A stretch of DNA of 46,299 nucleotides from Fidelibacterota bacterium (GTDB taxonomy: Bacteria; Fidelibacterota; Marinisomatia; Marinisomatales; UBA1611): assembly GCA_028338895.1 (NCBI GenBank), contig JAOLAV010000007.1, positions 1-46,299 on the forward strand, read 5' to 3'. Made by a program: the position numbers and the translations under genes. The notes beneath the pieces are model-generated. The model worked only from the letters and a program-made list of their open reading frames with translations. It made no database searches and was not told where the DNA came from. Below, piece by piece: positions 10,216-20,617 of this stretch (position 1 is its first letter; every line of letters begins with the position of its first letter).

Positions 10216-11472
10216 TTAAGTTTTTCTTTCTTTTTTTCTAGCAGCTGGAAACAGAATATTGTTTAAAATAAGCCGATATCCTGGTGAATTCCGATGGAGT
10301 GAAAGATCTGTAGTTGGGTCCCCAACAAAATGTTGATAGTCTTCGGGGTCATGTCCACCATAAAATGTGAATGTTCCATTTCCAAAGTTTCCATGTAAAT
10401 ACTTAACTTGATCAGATGCCGGATCGTTCCCCATAATAACTATATGACTCTTTATTTTTTCTTTTTTAAATCCAGTTGTTTGTCCCATAAAACCTCTTAT
10501 TATTGAGACATGATTCTGTGTAAGCATTGTTGGAACAGGATCATATTTTGCTGAGAATTCAAATAGTGAAAAATAATCAGCTTTAGCTCCACGAGTTATT
10601 GGATTATTGCTTGGAGGAAAATCAATATCCGAAAACTCATAAATCATTGGGTCAGGTATTAATTTAAAATCAGTAAATGCAAAAGTTTGTGAGAAATCTA
10701 ATTTAGATTGAATAGATAAATCCATTTTAGTACCATTGAATACTGAGTGAACACCATCTGCATTACCCATTGCTAGTGCGATGTCATAGGAGTCTGTCGC
10801 AGAGCACATAGCAAAAAGAAAGCCACCATTCCCAACATAGTTTTTTATTTTTCGAGCGATTGATTTTTTTTGCTCATGAACGCTAGAATATCCAAGCCTT
10901 GTAGCGAGCTGTTCATACTGTGTTTTCTGATCTCGATACCATTGTGAATTTCTTTGACTACGATAAAATTTTCCATATTGGCCTGTAAAATCTTCATGAT
11001 GTAGATGAAGCCAGTCATATTTTTCAAGTTTTCCAATATGAACTTCTTCATCCCAAAGAGTTTCATATTTTACTTCCGCGTATGTAAGTGCCAAAGTAAC
11101 AGCATCATCCCAGGGCTGTTTATTTGGTGGAGTATAAATTGCAATCTCCGGCTTTTTTTCAAGTAGGGAGATATCCATATTATTTTGATCAATTATTGAA
11201 TAAATCTGTATAAGATTTTTAGAGTTTACCATTTCAAATGTAACGCCTTTAATCTTGCAATCACTTTGGATGAAAGGATATGAATCGACCAAAAAAGAAC
11301 CACCTCGATAGTTTAAAAGCCATTCAATATTAATTTTTTTTTCTAAAATTGAATATACTATCCCATATGCTTTTAGATGATCATTTTGTGATTGATCCAT
11401 TGGAATAATAATTTTTTGTGAAAAAGAAAAATTTAAAATAATAATAAAAATAAATAGGTAAAATCGAATCAT
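10216..11472 (-). CDS. Secreted protein often mis-named asparagine synthetase B; GATase1-like fold
   Basis: A 418-residue exported protein with a signal peptide ending FSFS-Q (mature protein probably starts at Gln19). It resembles a Bacteroidetes family that pipelines label asparagine synthetase B, but I see neither an N-terminal Cys2 glutaminase domain nor an ATP-PPi synthetase motif, so that name should not be used. The stretch GNGGFLFAMCSATDSYDIAL (C223) looks like the nucleophile elbow of a class I amidotransferase-like fold. His-rich YDWLHLHHEDF (152-162) and YGGHDPEDYQH lie before and after it. No enzymatic activity is established to my knowledge. The start overlaps the stop of the TPR gene by ATGA, and AAGGTG within the last codons of that gene could act as a Shine-Dalgarno sequence. 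It is the last gene of the four-gene operon. Confidence 0.75.
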   Translation of the reverse strand: MIRFYLFIFIIILNFSFSQKIIIPMDQSQNDHLKAYGIVYSILEKKINIEWLLNYRGGSFLVDSYPFIQSDCKIKGVTFEMVNSKNLIQIYSIIDQNNMDISLLEKKPEIAIYTPPNKQPWDDAVTLALTYAEVKYETLWDEEVHIGKLEKYDWLHLHHEDFTGQYGKFYRSQRNSQWYRDQKTQYEQLATRLGYSSVHEQKKSIARKIKNYVGNGGFLFAMCSATDSYDIALAMGNADGVHSVFNGTKMDLSIQSKLDFSQTFAFTDFKLIPDPMIYEFSDIDFPPSNNPITRGAKADYFSLFEFSAKYDPVPTMLTQNHVSIIRGFMGQTTGFKKEKIKSHIVIMGNDPASDQVKYLHGNFGNGTFTFYGGHDPEDYQHFVGDPTTDLSLHRNSPGYRLILNNILFPAARKKERKT

Positions 11473-13334
11473 ATAGTTTTCACCTTTTGAATTTTTCTTA
11501 TATGAAAACGTATTGGTTCTGAGTAAATAGAATTAGGGAATTCATTAATGATTTTCATATAATTTTCTAGAGCTTTTTCAATATTAGATAGTTTATATTC
11601 ATGTATTTGCCCGATTAGGATAACTCCTCGATCTTCATATTCTGAGCCTTTTAAGTTGGTTGCAAATTTAAGAGATTCATCAAGACTTCCGATTTTATAA
11701 TTTAAGAGACTTAAACGAAGGTTTACTAAAGGAGTAATTTTTGATTTCGGATAATTATCGAAAACGTACATTAACTCTTCTATAGCATTACCTGTTTTTT
11801 TCTGTCTTAAGAAATATTCTGACCTTAAAAAATAATGTAATGGAAGGTTACCTTCCTCTTTTTCAGAACTATATTTTGACAGAATTGTTCTAAGTTCCAT
11901 CAAATCATTAAAAGTTGAGTTCGTTGGACTAGTTTCTTTTAAAAAATCTTTTATGAGCAAAAGTGATGAATCTGGCTCTTCTGTAAGGAGATGTACTAAT
12001 AATATTCTTTCTTTTATTTTAACGGATGGTTTACTTTTGTAAAAGTCTTTCAGAAAAGACTTAGCCTTATCTAGATTTCCTTTAGCAATAAAAGTATCGG
12101 CAATTCTTAATTTAATTTTTTCGTTTAGTAATATTCCTGGTTTATTATTTAATGCTTTATTAAACAAATTGTACGCCTTGTCAAAATCTTGCAAAACTTT
12201 GAATTGAACTTCACCAATTCTAAAATATACCTCAGCAAGTATTGCGGGGTTTTTTATAGATATTATTAATGAATCGTAGACCTGAAGACTAGATTTTAAG
12301 TTTTCAATAGACATTGTTTTTGAGGATATAAATTGATCTTGAAAAAAAATATTATCATCATAAAAATATGGTATCAAAAACACTTCATCCATTGTGATAA
12401 TTTGTTTTTCAACTGTTTTTGCAAGTCCGATTAATGCTTTATCTGTGATCTTAGAATTTAAATTTTGATTTAAAATAAAATTATAAGCATAGGTTGAATA
12501 TTTGAATTGATTTTCTTCATTTAAATCAGCAGCAAATTCCAACCAGCTTTTAAAATCGCGACTACCTAATAATGTCCACTTCTCTTTTGCTTTCATTGCA
12601 AGTTCATATTTTTGCTGTTTGAAATAAAATTGACTTATTATATTAAGTATTTTTTCTGGGTTTATTTCTGCCGCATATATGAGCTTCTGCTCGATTATTT
12701 TCTGAGCCTCGACTTCATCACTCATAATTAAAATTCGTTTTTCTATAAGACTGCTATTCTTTTTTTGATATATCAGATGGAGAATAAATTGATCCATCGC
12801 TAGATCATATTCCCTTTTTGTTTGGTGAAAAAGACCAGACTCATAAGCTAAAAATGCTTTATCAAAGTTTTTTCTTCCTTTCGTAAGAATAAGATCGATA
12901 TTTTTTTGATCGCTATATTTTTCAAGTAGACTGATTAAAAGTCGATAATATGTTTTACTTGACTGAAATTTATCTAAGCCACTAGACCATGTTGCTTTGG
13001 CAAGTCCTTTTTGATCGTCAAGGTAGTAAAATTCGCTGAGATATAGATACACTCGAGTATCATTAGGTGAATTAACTAGCCTTTTCCTCATGAGCTGAAT
13101 CCCTTCTTCATATTTTTGATTATTTTGATACAAAGATTTTAGGCTACTAAATGATTGATAATGAGTTGGCTTTTTTTCTAATATATCTCTGTATACAGAG
13201 ATTGCGGCATCAATTTCTCCTTCCCGTTCAAGCATCTTTGCCGTTTTTAAAGCTCCATTGTAAGAGGGATTATTTTGACTTATTAATAAACTTACGCCTG
13301 ATAAAAAAACTGAAAGTATTATCCTATTTTGCAT
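11469..13334 (-). CDS. Exported tetratricopeptide-repeat protein
   Basis: A 621-residue protein with a short signal peptide (SGVSLLIS-Q) and helical repeats throughout. TPR-like units are clear near the N-terminus (DAAISVYRDILEKKPTHYQSF, EEGIQLMRKRLVNSPNDTRVY), in the middle (DKAYNLFNKALNNKPG, LDKAKSFLKDFYKSKPS) and at the C-terminus (GNAIEELMYVFDNYPKSK, EKALENYMKIINEFPNS). It is probably a periplasmic scaffold or adaptor. It overlaps the upstream DUF4175-like gene by 11 bases and the downstream GATase-like gene by 4, so its production is coupled to both. No specific family beyond TPR is recognised. Confidence 0.8.
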   Translation of the reverse strand: MQNRIILSVFLSGVSLLISQNNPSYNGALKTAKMLEREGEIDAAISVYRDILEKKPTHYQSFSSLKSLYQNNQKYEEGIQLMRKRLVNSPNDTRVYLYLSEFYYLDDQKGLAKATWSSGLDKFQSSKTYYRLLISLLEKYSDQKNIDLILTKGRKNFDKAFLAYESGLFHQTKREYDLAMDQFILHLIYQKKNSSLIEKRILIMSDEVEAQKIIEQKLIYAAEINPEKILNIISQFYFKQQKYELAMKAKEKWTLLGSRDFKSWLEFAADLNEENQFKYSTYAYNFILNQNLNSKITDKALIGLAKTVEKQIITMDEVFLIPYFYDDNIFFQDQFISSKTMSIENLKSSLQVYDSLIISIKNPAILAEVYFRIGEVQFKVLQDFDKAYNLFNKALNNKPGILLNEKIKLRIADTFIAKGNLDKAKSFLKDFYKSKPSVKIKERILLVHLLTEEPDSSLLLIKDFLKETSPTNSTFNDLMELRTILSKYSSEKEEGNLPLHYFLRSEYFLRQKKTGNAIEELMYVFDNYPKSKITPLVNLRLSLLNYKIGSLDESLKFATNLKGSEYEDRGVILIGQIHEYKLSNIEKALENYMKIINEFPNSIYSEPIRFHIRKIQKVKTI

Positions 13335-16300
13335 CTTCTAATTCCGTCCTAATGCTGGTAAGTGAATTAAAATAGCGTTTAATCATATTTTGATGGTTTT
13401 TTGAGTATCCGGCATTCACCGCTTTATTTAAAGCCTTTAAAGCGAGATCTTCTCTCTGCCCCATATCTGAGGGAAGGCCACCAGGTCCCTCAAAAAGATT
13501 ATTTTGTTTTGAAGAAGAAGACTTTCTTTCATCTTTTTTTCCTCTTTGGGTCATTGACGTTTGACTATCTAACATTCTTGAAAGGATTTTTTGTTGTCTT
13601 TTTTGCGTTTGCCTTTCAAATCTATTTAATTTCAAATCTTTGATTACTTTATCCATCTCGTCCGATATACCACTTAAATCACCGAGTTTATTTCCACCAG
13701 AATTTTGCATTTCCTTCATTAATTGATCTAGCGATTTACGAACAGACATTTGTTTTGAGAGCATCTGTTGCATCATTTTTTTTTGTGCGGATGCAGCCAC
13801 TTGACCCAAACTTAACTGCATGCCCTGTTCATTCAATGACTGCTGTTGACCAGCCATTTGCTGCATCATTTTTAAAAATTGTTCATAGCCGTTTGCTGAT
13901 CCTGATTTCTGCATCTCCTGCATACTATTAAAAAGAGCTAGTGCTGCTTCATTTAATCCCTCCATTGCCTTTTTTTGACTTTTTTTTGCTTTCGGCATGT
14001 CTCTTCCAACTAACTCTTCCTTTGCGGAGTTCATATTTGCACTTGCTTTTCCAACAGCTCTTCCAATATCAGGTGTTATTGCAAATGTCTCTTTTGATAG
14101 GGAAATCATTTTTTTTGTTATGGATTGGAGTTGGTCTTGAAGAAGTTGCTGGCGAGCCGCTAGTTCTTTGATTCGCGGAGAGTTCCTAGAAACTCCACTC
14201 AAATCATTTTTCAACTTTTCTTCTTGAGTAGATAAATATAGAAGGTCTTGTATTATTGATTCAAATTTTTTAGTTATTTCAGAAATTGATTCATTTTGAA
14301 AAGTTTCTTGAATTTTATCCATCTCTTCCAACATCTCTTGCATTTCATTAACTGATTTTTGGCTTGATATTCTGGCAGATTTCATGTTTTGATTCGAAAG
14401 GCTCTCCCTCGTTTCATTTAATGAGTTCTTAATATCTTCAGTAATATCACTTTCAGAGAGTGCCGACAAATCAGAAGCGACTTTTTCATTGAATGGCTTT
14501 ACTAATTCTGATGTTTCTTCAAGTAGAGATTTTATATTTTCAAACTCTTCTAGGTTACGTTCCTCTTGAGCAATTAGCCTTTCAGCCATAGCTTGAATCT
14601 CTTTATTTTTGTTCTCAGCCATATCTTGGCTTAATAATTCTTGTTGTTTTAAGAGCTGTTCCATTCTATTCTTTAATTCATCAAATTTTTGTTCTACCTG
14701 AAGCTGTTTAAATATTTCTAAATATCTTTCAAGTTCATCTTCAATCTCATTCATATTTTCAGCCAATTTATTTAAAGCTTCTTCCATAGACTTCATATCC
14801 ATCTCATCAAGTGCCTCTTCTAGTTCAGACATATTTTTAAGCATATCCCGAGGAATAATATTATTGATTAAGTCAGAAAGTTCTTCAAATTTATCAAGTA
14901 ACTCTGGAGAAAAGAGATTGTGCTTTTCTGCCTGTTCTGTAATGGCTTCTATTGCCTCGGACATCTTTTCTAAGTTTTTAAGTTCATCCTTAGCTTTTTC
15001 TAATGAATTCTCAATTGACTTTTGTTCTGCCCAGTCAAGTTCTTCACTTTTTAGAGCTTTCATCTCGAGCATTTCAAATTGTTTTTTTAATTCTTCGACT
15101 TCCTCAATCTCTATTGAAATATTATCTAGAAATTCATTTTCTGCAACCTCAGCTTTTTGATAAAGGATTTCTAATGAAGGAACTCTGGCAATAAATGTGG
15201 CTGAAATAGTTTTTTTTGGACCTGAAATTATATCATTATCCGTAAGTTCAAAATGAAAGTGAATTTCATCATCGGGCATAAGAAATAAGTCTCCTAGATC
15301 CCAAAGGCTCTTTATTTGTTGAGCAAGCGAGTCTTTACTAAGGTCAGGTAGACTAAACATAGCCACATAAGGATCTGATTTTAAATAGGAGGGCTTTCTC
15401 ACTTCATATGCAACCTGTAAATTTGTGAAACCATAATCATCCTGTATATTTAATTGAATTGGGATACTTTGATCATCTCCGAGTTCAGTAAAAGAAGAAG
15501 GTTGTATTATCGTTAAGATAGGGTCATAATCTGGAATTATTTCTACGCTGTATAATATAGGGTCACGGTTTGTTATACCTCGTTCATCAACTAAATTAAT
15601 TGAAAACTTAGCTTCTTCATTAATTGTAAAATAGCCAGATGCATTATTGTAATTAGAGTTCAAATTAACTTTATTTTCATCCATCAAAAGGTGTGCGGAT
15701 TCTAACATCCGATTAGAACTTAATTCCATTTGGACAATAGACCCTTTTAACCCCTTTATAACGGCAGTGTTACCTTCTTGAACTTGGTTGGGCAACCCAG
15801 AATAATCTGGAGGAATAATAGTGAGTTGAAATTTTTCAAGTGAAGGACGGTCTGTCACGAAAATAGTATCCGAATTTGACTCTACTTTTTCCCAGGATTC
15901 CCAAAAATATTTTGCTTTAACAACTGCTTTATAAGAATAATCCTGAAATAATTCAGGTAATAAAAAAGAATAAATACCCTTGCTGTTTGGAACCACTGAA
16001 AACTGAAGATTTAATGAATCTCGTTTTTTAGTTGAGACTTGAATTGGAGCTAAATATAAATTAACTGTGTCATTTATAATGATATTAGAGGATATATTAA
16101 TATTTAATTTTTCACCCCCTAGAATGTGAATGTTTCCTGTTTGGTTTGAGAGGATGAATGGTTTTGGCGCCGCATAATAAGTAGATGGATTACTCCAACG
16201 ATAAAAAGCATTTGAAGATTGTTCATAGGTTAATGAAAAAATCAAGGTTATAAAAACCCAAGCAATTAAAACATATTTTTTAATTTTATATGGTTTTTTT

Positions 16301-16737
16301 GAAGTAAAAACATTTTTAAATTTTAAATTATTTATTTTTTTAATGATTTTTTTTATAAATGCTTTAGCGAGTTCACTGGATTCATTTTCTTTTGTTCCAG
16401 ATTCAAGCTGCAGTGCATTCAATACTGTATCTGGTTTGTCTGGGAAAGATGTAGAGCCAAGCTTTTCAGCAATAATATTAAGCTTATAACGAGTGATTTT
16501 ATTTTCTTTTGCTCTATAAAACTGGAAAAATAGAATAAAAAATAGAATAAAAAAAAGTACAAAAATTAAGGTGAATAGAATCAATTTTATTTTTGTTGAA
16601 AAATAGAAAATAGACTCTAATTGTAAAGCTGTAAAAAATATTAATGATGTAAATAAGCTAAACCATAAAAAATAAATAAATAAATCTTGCTTTATTAAAA
16701 AAAACTGAGCTTTTTTGAGTTGTTCTTTTATTTGCAT
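13324..16737 (-). CDS. DUF4175-like inner-membrane coiled-coil protein
   Basis: A 1137-residue protein. Two membrane segments lie near residues 18-38 and 48-72 and a third near 154-172. Next comes an extracytoplasmic part of beta-rich Ig-like domains (about 180-520; PPDYSGLPNQ, DDYGFTNLQVAY, ELTDND). A very long Glu/Lys-rich coiled coil covers about 540-900, and the C-terminal region is rich in Met and Gln (KMMQQMAGQQQSLNEQGMQ, KKMMQQMLSKQ). This matches the DUF4175 family, of unknown function, found in Bacteroidetes, Gemmatimonadetes and relatives near MoxR/VWA-type genes. It is probably anchored in the inner membrane and reaches into the periplasm. Its ATG overlaps the stop of the DUF4159 gene (TAATG). 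Confidence 0.82.
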   Translation of the reverse strand: MQIKEQLKKAQFFLIKQDLFIYFLWFSLFTSLIFFTALQLESIFYFSTKIKLILFTLIFVLFFILFFILFFQFYRAKENKITRYKLNIIAEKLGSTSFPDKPDTVLNALQLESGTKENESSELAKAFIKKIIKKINNLKFKNVFTSKKPYKIKKYVLIAWVFITLIFSLTYEQSSNAFYRWSNPSTYYAAPKPFILSNQTGNIHILGGEKLNINISSNIIINDTVNLYLAPIQVSTKKRDSLNLQFSVVPNSKGIYSFLLPELFQDYSYKAVVKAKYFWESWEKVESNSDTIFVTDRPSLEKFQLTIIPPDYSGLPNQVQEGNTAVIKGLKGSIVQMELSSNRMLESAHLLMDENKVNLNSNYNNASGYFTINEEAKFSINLVDERGITNRDPILYSVEIIPDYDPILTIIQPSSFTELGDDQSIPIQLNIQDDYGFTNLQVAYEVRKPSYLKSDPYVAMFSLPDLSKDSLAQQIKSLWDLGDLFLMPDDEIHFHFELTDNDIISGPKKTISATFIARVPSLEILYQKAEVAENEFLDNISIEIEEVEELKKQFEMLEMKALKSEELDWAEQKSIENSLEKAKDELKNLEKMSEAIEAITEQAEKHNLFSPELLDKFEELSDLINNIIPRDMLKNMSELEEALDEMDMKSMEEALNKLAENMNEIEDELERYLEIFKQLQVEQKFDELKNRMEQLLKQQELLSQDMAENKNKEIQAMAERLIAQEERNLEEFENIKSLLEETSELVKPFNEKVASDLSALSESDITEDIKNSLNETRESLSNQNMKSARISSQKSVNEMQEMLEEMDKIQETFQNESISEITKKFESIIQDLLYLSTQEEKLKNDLSGVSRNSPRIKELAARQQLLQDQLQSITKKMISLSKETFAITPDIGRAVGKASANMNSAKEELVGRDMPKAKKSQKKAMEGLNEAALALFNSMQEMQKSGSANGYEQFLKMMQQMAGQQQSLNEQGMQLSLGQVAASAQKKMMQQMLSKQMSVRKSLDQLMKEMQNSGGNKLGDLSGISDEMDKVIKDLKLNRFERQTQKRQQKILSRMLDSQTSMTQRGKKDERKSSSSKQNNLFEGPGGLPSDMGQREDLALKALNKAVNAGYSKNHQNMIKRYFNSLTSIRTELEDAK

Positions 16738-17390
16738 TATTGAATAAGAGAAAAATATATAATATTGACACCCATCTTCAAAGCAGACTCTCTTAATGGT
16801 TGAGGGTCATTATGAACACTTGAGTCTTCCCAACCATCTCCTAAATCAGATTCATAAGTGTATAATAGAATCATCCTTTCGCCTTCGAAGAGAGCAAGTG
16901 CTTGGGGGGGCTTATTATCATGTTCATGAATTTTTGGAAGTCCATTTTCAAATCTGTAATAAGAATTAAAAATTAGATGATCATTTGGTAGAGGAACTAA
17001 GTCTTTATTTGGGAAGACTCTCTTTATTTCTCTTCGAAATGATTTATCCATCCCATAGTTATCATCCGCATGTAAAAAACCACCACTTGATAGAATAGAT
17101 CGAAGTACAATAATTTCATCTTCGGTTAAACTTATATTACCATGACCCGTCAAATAAAGGTAAGGATATTGTGATATTTTATCATCCGTAAGTTTCATTT
17201 TGACTTCATTCGGATATACTGAAATAGGTGTATTTAAATCTAAATAATTAAGAAGATTTGGAATGCTACTAGGATCACTATACCAGTCTCCTCCTCCATT
17301 ATAATGTATTCGGGCAATAGAGAAAGTTTGAGTTTTTATGTAGCTCACAGAGCAAAAAATGATAAATAAAATTATTCTTTTTTTAATCAT
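16737..17390 (-). CDS. DUF4159 exported protein
   Basis: A small protein with signal peptide MIKKRIILFIIFCSVSYIKT-Q, followed by the DUF4159 domain, which has a GATase1/ThuA-like fold. Visible family motifs are IARIHYNGGGDWY, YPYLYLTGHG, LRSILSSGGFLHADD, FRREIKRVFP, and GDGWED near the C-terminus. I chose the ATG at 17390 because the signal peptide starts naturally there; an in-frame ATG at 17405 would add five residues. It is the first gene of the four-gene minus-strand operon. In other FCB bacteria DUF4159 and DUF4175 genes neighbour each other, often with MoxR and DUF58 genes, which are absent here. Its function is unknown. Confidence 0.85.
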   Translation of the reverse strand: MIKKRIILFIIFCSVSYIKTQTFSIARIHYNGGGDWYSDPSSIPNLLNYLDLNTPISVYPNEVKMKLTDDKISQYPYLYLTGHGNISLTEDEIIVLRSILSSGGFLHADDNYGMDKSFRREIKRVFPNKDLVPLPNDHLIFNSYYRFENGLPKIHEHDNKPPQALALFEGERMILLYTYESDLGDGWEDSSVHNDPQPLRESALKMGVNIIYFSLIQ

Positions 17391-17505
17391 AAAATTATAA
17401 TGCAATAATCAATTCAATTGTTCCTTAAAATGGAATGGAAAAGTTAGCTAGTTTTAGACTCTGTTCTTGTAAGAATTGATGAATTAATCCAATTTTACAC
17501 ATAAA

Positions 17506-19362
17506 ATGATTACTAATAAAAATATTATAATTTTTATAATTCTGACTTTTATCTCAATTTTAAATGGTCAAGAAGCCGAAGCTAAGGCTGATAAAACATT
17601 TTTATTTGGATTAATTAAGTTTGATACAAACTCTCCGTATGAAGATGGCTACTGGATTAATAAGTGGTTTTATTCCCGAGAATTTGCATCTGCCACAAAT
17701 TTTATTCCAATTGAAATACGATATGGGCTTGGGGCAACAGGTAAGTCAAAAGGCAGTGCTTCATCTATTAGCGCAGAGTCATTTAAGGATGATCCGGGTA
17801 AAATTAGATATGACTCAGATGTTACAGCAATTAGCCAAGGTTCAGAAAATATTTGGGGGCCATCTATAGAAATAGATATTGGTTTATTAAATATACCATA
17901 TTATGTAACTGGTACAAGTTGGATGAATGTAATGACCGGATTAACATACAGATCTAGTAGCCTTTTTTCACCGGCGCAGGTACCGTATAAAGATTGGGGG
18001 AACACCAATCCGAGTTGGAGCGACACTGCATTTTTTTCACCTAAGTTAAAAGAGTATTTAGCCACGACTCACCTTCAATATCAGCCATTTAATAATTGGT
18101 ATTTAAATTTTCGTTATTCTTATGGGATTGCATCGGCTCTATTTTATTCACCTGATAAAATAATTTGGGATGAAAGTTTATCCGGATCGGGAACTTCTGC
18201 TGCAGGTTCCGCGGGAATAAGATTTATTCTTGATCCTGGTAAAAACAGTAGATTTACAGTTGGATTAGATTTTCGTTATTCTTACACGAAGATTCACACC
18301 ATTAATGATCCATTAGATAAGACACCAATTACAAGGTTTGATTTATCTAACTATGGTTTCTACGTTACGTTGTCAACATTTTATGGCGGAAAAAAAACAA
18401 GTGGAGATAAAGCAAAATCATACTATTACAGAAAAGACTATATAGAATCACTTAAGATTTTCAAACAGTTTATGTCTGAGTACCCCACTCATTCAAATAG
18501 ACACCGAGCAAAAGAATATATCAAAGATTCAGAGTATAAAATACCTTATCAAATTTTAGAGGAGGGTATTTTATTAGAAAAAAAAGGTAAAACGCAGAAT
18601 GCCTTAGATTTATATCAATATGCTCTTACAAAGGTCAAAAATGATTCTGTTATAGTAATGATTTTAGGTAAGCGTATAACTCAAATTGCTTTGTTATGGA
18701 TGATTGAGGCTGAAAAGAGATTAAAAGAAGATCGATATGTTGAAGCTTACAACCTTGTAAAGCATGTTGCTGAGTTTAGTATTGAGGGTCAAAAAGAAAT
18801 AAGACGATTTAAATCATGGGTTCTTTTAGGAGAAGGGAAGCAGTTTCAAGAATATGGTTTTATTGGCAAGGCAATGGGGAAGTATGCTGAAGGGCTTGCG
18901 ATGAATAAGGATCTTATATATGAGGTAAATGCTCTTCAATATAAAGCGGGAATTCAAATGGCAAATCTTGCTAAAAAAGCAGATGAATTCGATGAAGTAC
19001 AATTAGCCATTTACTCATTAGAATTCGCTCGAGAATTATCAGGGGGTATAGGCAAAAAAAATGAGGATTTATTAATTCAATTAAAAGATAGACTAAAGTC
19101 GTTAGATGATTATAAGTCTAGAGTTTTAATAGACCGTAAAATGATTAATGCACGATTAGAGCTTGCAAAAGCAAAAACTGAAAAATTAGAGGTAGGACTT
19201 TCAGTGCCGGATATCCAAAGGCTATTGGGTGAGCCTCATGAGAAGATACTAGGAAATGGTGGTACTAATATTGAAGAGCAACTATGGATATATTTCACAA
19301 ACAAAAAATCTTTGCAGCTTTCATTTGTTAATTTTATACTATTTAAAATTGAAGAGATTTAA
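17506..19362 (+). CDS. Outer-membrane barrel / TPR / BamE-like fusion protein
   Basis: A 618-residue exported protein with signal peptide ending SILNG-Q. Residues ~28-293 alternate aromatic and polar residues in beta-strand-like stretches (YYVTGTSWMNVMTGLTYRS, NWYLNFRYSYGIASALFYS, RFTVGLDFRYSYTK, NYGFYVTLSTFYGG), suggesting an outer-membrane beta-barrel. Residues ~300-530 are helical TPR-like repeats (DYIESLKIFKQFMSEYPTHS, GKTQNALDLYQYALTKVKND). The last ~55 residues (VGLSVPDIQRLLGEPHEKI ... EEQLWIYF ... LSFVNFILFKIEEI) resemble the SmpA/BamE fold. I do not know a named family with this order. It is divergent from the DUF4159 operon, with a 115-base shared upstream region. The domain calls are inferred from pattern only. 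Confidence 0.65.
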   Translation: MITNKNIIIFIILTFISILNGQEAEAKADKTFLFGLIKFDTNSPYEDGYWINKWFYSREFASATNFIPIEIRYGLGATGKSKGSASSISAESFKDDPGKIRYDSDVTAISQGSENIWGPSIEIDIGLLNIPYYVTGTSWMNVMTGLTYRSSSLFSPAQVPYKDWGNTNPSWSDTAFFSPKLKEYLATTHLQYQPFNNWYLNFRYSYGIASALFYSPDKIIWDESLSGSGTSAAGSAGIRFILDPGKNSRFTVGLDFRYSYTKIHTINDPLDKTPITRFDLSNYGFYVTLSTFYGGKKTSGDKAKSYYYRKDYIESLKIFKQFMSEYPTHSNRHRAKEYIKDSEYKIPYQILEEGILLEKKGKTQNALDLYQYALTKVKNDSVIVMILGKRITQIALLWMIEAEKRLKEDRYVEAYNLVKHVAEFSIEGQKEIRRFKSWVLLGEGKQFQEYGFIGKAMGKYAEGLAMNKDLIYEVNALQYKAGIQMANLAKKADEFDEVQLAIYSLEFARELSGGIGKKNEDLLIQLKDRLKSLDDYKSRVLIDRKMINARLELAKAKTEKLEVGLSVPDIQRLLGEPHEKILGNGGTNIEEQLWIYFTNKKSLQLSFVNFILFKIEEI

Positions 19363-19420: not shown

Positions 19421-20617
19421 ATGAAATATCCAATTAAATTTATTTTCTTTTTTCTATTTTTTGCTTTTGTAATTGGCCAACCTGATGATCGAGACTACGA
19501 TGAGGAATTAAGATATCAGAATAATGCGATTAACTCTCTTAAGACAGAGATTAGTCAATTGCGCTCAAAAATAAAATCTGCTGAATCAAGAGAAAGATCT
19601 GCTTCAAGTCGTATTTCATCAATAGATGAAGAAATTTCATTGACTGCTAAATTGATCCAATCCTTAAAAAATGAGGAAGAAAAAACACGAAAACGAATTT
19701 TGCAGTTAAAAAGAAATATTTTAGAGAATGAACAGAAGTTAGAGTCTCTAAGGGCAAGATATAAAAAAAGAGTTGTTAACTCTTATCTCAAAGGTCGTTT
19801 AACAGATTTAGAGAGAGTCTTCTCTTCAACTACTTGGCGCCAAGCGATGTATAGAACTCATTATTTTAAAATTATTTCTGATATCGAAAAAAAAATGACG
19901 AAGAAAATTGAAAGACTACTAATTGATATTAGCCAGCAAAAGTTAGAACTTGAAGCTATGCTTCGAGATAACCTTAATCTAAAGCGCGATAAAGAAAAAG
20001 AAATGAGTTCTTATCGGAATATGCGTATAAATAGAGAAAAGGAACTGAACCGTATTAGAACCGATAAAAAAGCACTTGCAAATTATGTTAATGAAAAAGA
20101 AGCTGGAGTCCAGCAACTAGAAAGTATTATAAAACAAGTCTTAGAAGACAAAGCTCGATTTCAACGGGAAGCCAGAATACGACAGCAACAAGAAGCGCTG
20201 AAAACAAAAAGCTTTAAATCGCTAGCAGGACAACTTCCTTGGCCAGCTGAGGGAAGAATTATTGCAAAGTTTGGTCGCCAGTGGAATCCTAAATTAAAAA
20301 CAACAACAGAAAACCCGGGTATAGATATTAAAGGCCAGCCAGGTTCGGCAATACGAACAATTCTAGGAGGAGTGGTTACGACAATTACCTATATACGTGG
20401 ATACGGTACAACTATTATTGTTGACCATGGCGGTGGGTTTTATACCGTTTATAGCCATGTGACGAATATTCAAGCGACTGTAGATAGTGAAATTCGAAAT
20501 GGAGATGTTATCGCTTATATGGGTGATTCAGGTTCTATCAATGGATCAAAACTCCATTTTGAAATTTGGGGAAAAGGACAAAAGTTAGATCCAGAAAAAT
20601 GGTTACGAAAAAGGTAG
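19421..20617 (+). CDS. EnvC-like murein hydrolase activator (degenerate LytM domain)
   Basis: A 398-residue exported protein with a signal peptide (FAFVIG-Q) and a long coiled coil at about 30-255. A C-terminal LytM/M23 domain covers about 275-398. EnvC-type proteins activate periplasmic amidases during cell separation. Two of the four catalytic zinc residues are changed. The HxxxD motif reads N298-P-G-I-D302 instead of H-x-x-x-D, and the HxH motif reads K377-L-H379. It is therefore probably a regulator rather than a peptidase. YSHVTNI and the GDSGSINGSKLHFEIW block confirm the domain. The 3' end overlaps holB by 19 bases. Confidence 0.88.
   Translation: MKYPIKFIFFFLFFAFVIGQPDDRDYDEELRYQNNAINSLKTEISQLRSKIKSAESRERSASSRISSIDEEISLTAKLIQSLKNEEEKTRKRILQLKRNILENEQKLESLRARYKKRVVNSYLKGRLTDLERVFSSTTWRQAMYRTHYFKIISDIEKKMTKKIERLLIDISQQKLELEAMLRDNLNLKRDKEKEMSSYRNMRINREKELNRIRTDKKALANYVNEKEAGVQQLESIIKQVLEDKARFQREARIRQQQEALKTKSFKSLAGQLPWPAEGRIIAKFGRQWNPKLKTTTENPGIDIKGQPGSAIRTILGGVVTTITYIRGYGTTIIVDHGGGFYTVYSHVTNIQATVDSEIRNGDVIAYMGDSGSINGSKLHFEIWGKGQKLDPEKWLRKR

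Follow-up and report, generated by a model that had tools for sequence, protein, structure and literature searches.

What could a protein do in the cell envelope that joins an outer-membrane barrel, a TPR region, and a BamE-like tail in one exported chain? This question is raised by an intact open reading frame at positions 17506-19362 (+ strand) of the stretch of DNA analyzed in this study (46,299 nucleotides, hereafter the window). The frame starts with ATG and encodes a protein of 618 amino acids without cysteine, referred to as X. The initial annotation had proposed the three parts, regarded their order as unusual, and connected the gene with outer-membrane biogenesis or division.

A signal peptide was predicted from the sequence at about residues 1-21 (17506..17568, +), with cleavage near ...ILNG/QE. 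An AlphaFold model of X was generated from a 48-row alignment (mean pLDDT 83.9, pTM 0.62). Specifically, it comprises an 8-stranded OmpA-type outer-membrane beta-barrel (residues 64-294; 17695..18387, +; AlphaFold, Foldseek, Pfam), a TPR-like helical solenoid predicted to be periplasmic (residues 299-512; 18400..19041, +; AlphaFold, Pfam TPR_2, Foldseek), a long connecting helix (residues 516-556; 19051..19173, +; AlphaFold secondary structure), and a BLIP/SmpA-OmlA (BamE-like) C-terminal domain (residues 562-618; 19189..19359, +; hhalign, Foldseek, Pfam, conservation). Helices were modeled from residue 299 onward, and a C-terminal helix and a short sheet at residues 567-617. AlphaFold, Foldseek, Pfam searches of the individual members, and a controlled profile comparison all upheld the order of barrel, TPR, and BamE-like tail in one exported chain. 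The predicted architecture was thus confirmed on the basis of these models, and its boundaries (barrel end at 294, tail at about 562-618) are nearly identical to those of the initial annotation.

The eight modeled strands of the barrel span residues 64-78, 117-129, 141-151, 176-192, 198-215, 226-241, 248-267, and 275-294. In a Foldseek search of X against the PDB, the barrel of E. coli OmpA was found at ranks 1 and 2 (probability 1.00, TM-score by target up to 0.62); OprG, Ail, OmpW, and OmpX stood lower among the matches listed. The barrel suspected earlier was borne out by the eight strands and the OmpA-class matches, its closure between strands 1 and 8 being judged from these matches only. 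Sequence homology of the barrel to OmpA was not detectable by hhalign (probability 0.4), the generic Pfam model OMP_b-brl matched 7 of 33 members, and only strands 1-3 and 7 showed a clearly alternating hydrophobicity. The long loops (79-116, 152-175, 216-225, and 268-274), predicted to be extracellular, lie on one side of the model, and the short turns and both termini on the opposite side. With its signal peptide, short periplasmic turns, and long outer loops, X has, by prediction, the features of an OmpA-type 8-stranded barrel, and the proposed outer-membrane location is supported to the same extent. A chance or artefactual barrel was ruled out by model confidence, the OmpA-class Foldseek matches, and conservation.

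In X, as in E. coli OmpA and other OmpA-type two-domain proteins, an 8-stranded barrel at the N-terminus precedes a periplasmic C-terminal part. This topology and fold, together with its wide retention as a single copy, would suit a general envelope stabilizer whose TPR/BLIP arm binds many partners or lipids and has no specific tie to the neighboring operon. We consider such a role possible, but on the unlikely side. The C-terminal peptidoglycan-binding domain of OmpA was not found in X by Pfam; in the model, its place is taken by the TPR and BLIP-like domains. Furthermore, no segment of X is better conserved than its last extracellular loop (268-274; 0.71 versus 0.64 for the strands), which is unusual for a purely structural barrel.

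In the central region, TPR helical hairpins were recognized by Pfam (TPR_2 in 22 of 33 members), AlphaFold, and Foldseek. With X of the window alone, Pfam matches were weak and the TPR match lay below the cut-off. The solenoid was modeled with a pLDDT of about 90-97 through residue 440. Rhodothermus marinus BamD ranked third in the Foldseek search against the PDB via the TPR, and LapB and other TPR proteins were matched as well. A TPR specific to BamD was rejected, as the TPR profile scores LapB and CpoB higher than BamD. TPR and an outer-membrane barrel also occur in one chain in the export proteins PgaA, BcsC, and Slam. There, the TPR precedes a larger barrel, whereas in X a small barrel comes first. 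PG1058/PorE of the T9SS is likewise a multidomain envelope protein with TPR; it carries an OmpA-like peptidoglycan-binding domain, which X does not. PG1058/PorE is not known to have a barrel of its own.

The tail of X carries the motif G(M/L)x..(V/I)..LLG.P...(Q/E)LW.Y...L.F....LFKIE, and shares the fold and the pattern GMT..V...LG.P ... W.Y ... L.F with BamE/SmpA-OmlA (PF04355) of the BLIP-like superfamily. The Pfam BamE model matched the tail alone with E 0.088 and 13.1 bits, below the gathering cut-off of 23.2. Of 33 members, 4 were matched by this model at E<=0.1, with 0.0033 as the best value. A comparison of the tail profile with E. coli BamE by hhalign gave probabilities of 46-60. When 294 E. 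coli ORFs were screened as a control, BamE scored highest with 46 and the next non-BamE ORF reached 3.6, which ruled out a chance BamE motif. A separate model of the tail (79 residues, mean pLDDT 77) had the BLIP-like protein 3d4e, E. coli BamE, BLIP, and B. henselae BamE among its top Foldseek matches; their probabilities were 0.96-0.99, but their E-values of 0.18-0.4 were weak, as expected for 79 residues. When the tail profile was searched against PDB sequences, weak matches to enteropeptidase led; BLIP-like 3d4e had an E-value of 0.031 and BamE E-values of 1.5-1.8, a result that does not decide the matter by itself. By hhalign and Foldseek, the tail therefore has a BLIP/BamE-like fold with its motif, as the initial annotation had expected. 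SmpA_OmlA, BLIP, DUF3192, DUF2874, and PepSY form one superfamily for which binding or inhibitory roles have been suggested (PMC2954215). We therefore name the tail BLIP/SmpA-OmlA-like rather than BamE. BamE is patchy even within proteobacteria, and weak BamE matches can reflect OsmE-like proteins (PMC3359395).

As BamD was the third match of the whole model and the tail resembles BamE, X could be read as an accessory protein in the assembly of outer-membrane proteins, its own barrel being equipped with a BamD-like TPR and a BamE-like domain. This appears very unlikely to us. The TPR profile is nearer to LapB and CpoB, and two lineages without X must still assemble their outer-membrane proteins. 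In contrast to BamE, X is not a small lipoprotein: its 618 amino acids fuse the tail to a barrel and TPRs, X itself lacks a lipobox, and no lipobox-like motif was found within the first 45 residues in any of 48 relatives. Separate BamE-like lipoproteins of about 150 amino acids coexist with X in the same genomes. Moreover, the BamE-like tail recurs as a module in other Marinimicrobia proteins. It was observed at the end of a 600-amino-acid ORF (L151, G040:C68), in which an M48 peptidase takes the N-terminal position of the barrel and is followed by TPRs and the same C-terminal module, hinting that TPR and BamE-like tail are a recurrent pair in the phylum. A lipoprotein family of roughly 285 amino acids in the genomes that carry X (L148, L149) has a BamE-like end with an EQW(I/V)Y motif. 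Given the separate lipoproteins and the reuse of the tail, X is not a BamE and does not replace it. The reuse also means that a BamE-like tail implies no role in BAM and does not by itself identify the pathway of X; annotation of such modules as BAM parts can mislead.

The closest relatives of X were found in genomes of Marinimicrobia (SAR406), ocean bacteria that are among the most abundant uncultured marine phyla. Contigs were scanned with one peptide pattern, which reaches close relatives only. A single copy of X was present in 52 of the 61 relatives, and sampling across the phylum recovered it in 141 of 199 genomes (71/93 among the better assemblies). The order of barrel, TPR, and tail was the same in all 30 divergent members inspected, which belong to other families and classes, so that the architecture proposed in the initial annotation recurs deep in the phylum. 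With a per-domain E-value below 0.05, the tail profile matched 28 of these 30 members, and the pattern G-M...P...EL.(V/I)Y was still seen in the remaining two. No model covering the whole of X exists in Pfam or NCBIfam, in agreement with the view that the architecture is unusual; no meaningful family emerged from searches of NCBIfam and PHROGs, and literature searches found nothing on the family. X thus represents an unnamed, conserved family in which known domains are newly arranged. It is predicted to reside in the outer membrane throughout the phylum, and its domain order was not found in the libraries searched.

Downstream of X in the window lie an EnvC-like gene, holB, and metG. The EnvC-like coiled-coil/LytM protein is encoded 58 bp downstream of X (19421..20617, +; Pfam M23, with EnvC as the best NCBIfam match but below the cut-off). 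Its position raises the possibility that X is the outer-membrane partner of an EnvC-like amidase activator in division or septal peptidoglycan splitting. In most members of f1, the family of the window, and in a small number of lineages elsewhere, envC directly follows X at a distance of mostly about 60 bp. No terminator-like site was found between the two genes. In the orthologues sampled, the LytM domain is missing the initial His of both HxxxD and HxH; these losses of two zinc-ligand histidines are consistent with a putative non-enzymatic amidase activator. Furthermore, AdvA of A. baumannii, which like the neighboring gC contains a DUF4175 domain, is a critical division protein (PMC7481262). 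In the remaining loci, however, X and envC are 0.6-7.5 kb apart, typically about 1.7 kb, mostly with antisense genes between them where the stretch was inspected. At six loci (L115, L116, L122, L123, L127, and L129), two antisense genes were seen. By eye, the intervening genes encode an AI-2E/PerM-type permease and a cyclic-nucleotide-binding protein, and a division operon with FtsEX was rejected on these grounds. Neither regular co-occurrence nor a conserved operon of X with envC was found. As EnvC is kept in genomes without X and X often stands apart from envC, the role in outer-membrane biogenesis or division suggested in the initial annotation is unsupported. The link of X to EnvC and division is weak, and we regard a partnership of the two as unlikely.

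On the other side of X, a divergent operon of four genes was analyzed. The gene next to X, 100 bp away, encodes a secreted DUF4159 protein (gD; 16737..17405, -; Pfam E 1.9e-63, signal-peptide-like N-terminus). It is followed by genes for a DUF4175 protein with N-terminal hydrophobic segments, a candidate inner-membrane protein (gC; 13324..16737, -; Pfam E 4.4e-24, synteny), a secreted TPR protein (gB; 11469..13334, -; Pfam TPRs, signal-peptide-like N-terminus), and a conserved secreted protein of 418 amino acids with no convincing family match (gA; 10216..11472, -; signal-peptide-like N-terminus, synteny). As listed, gD starts with TTG at 17405, and the alternative ATG at 17390 results in a cleaner signal peptide (MIKKRIILFIIFC). 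The genes for DUF4159 and X are divergent neighbors in most loci, and the pair is common across the order and its families and recurs in other classes. In several deeper lineages, the DUF4159 gene lies 0.5-3.5 kb from X or is absent from the stretch fetched.

The joint presence and absence of these genes was explored in 70 genomes of the order, a set made up of genomes with a completeness of 85 or more and the window's own. Among the 70, X was found in 56, DUF4159 in 57 (two of them weak matches), and EnvC homologues in all 70, although the EnvC match in three f15 genomes was weak and could be another M23 protein. X and DUF4159 are both absent from the families f13 and f15 and from genome G012, barring the two weak DUF4159-like matches in f15. 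At the f13 loci, the whole block from gA to gD and X is missing, and one unrelated small gene lies between mazG and EnvC. At the f15 loci, gA, gB, gC, and X are missing and the order of holB, metG, tatD, ksgA, and glmM is kept. A full-length EnvC is in place at the loci of both families, which argues against X as its partner. There, in genomes of 0.7-1.0 Mb (L154-L156 of f15), only a shortened DUF4159-like gene of about 195-200 amino acids is left, directly divergent from EnvC; in the two genomes with a match, its identity to gD is 27-29%. Based on the losses in f13 and f15, X tracks the DUF4159/DUF4175 block and not EnvC. Since X and gA-gD are contiguous, a single physical deletion or an assembly gap could explain their joint absence without functional dependence, and this observation needs to be read with care. 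A general stabilizer without a tie to the operon is disfavored by the position of X next to the operon, by their joint absence, and by the streamlined lineages that live without X. In light of the evolutionary evidence, the operon, seen in the initial annotation only as a divergent neighbor, is the better candidate for the partners of X.

We therefore propose, with moderate confidence, that X has an OmpA topology and acts as both outer-membrane anchor and scaffold for an envelope complex to which the gA-gD products also belong. The 8-stranded barrel would anchor X in the outer membrane, and, as in OmpA, the chain would both enter and leave the barrel on the periplasmic side. The C-terminal half would then hang in the periplasm as a TPR arm with a BLIP/BamE-like protein-binding tip. 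Together with the DUF4175 protein gC, probably anchored in the inner membrane, and the secreted proteins gD, gB, and gA, X might form a trans-envelope assembly; we infer the orientation of TPR and tail, the formation of this complex, and the role as a scaffold from the predicted structure and the gene neighborhood. The uncharacterized DUF4159/DUF4175 genes would thereby gain a candidate outer-membrane component, yielding a testable five-gene envelope module. A further-reaching and highly speculative reading, the least probable of those considered, is an undescribed trans-envelope machine of Marinimicrobia, in which X would be a self-contained platform for outer-membrane assembly or quality control with its own anchor, BamD-like TPR, and BamE-like domain.

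Finally, one contig with the X locus (L065) is titled as Thaumarchaeota archaeon (SAT137) and is probably a mis-binned Marinimicrobia contig.
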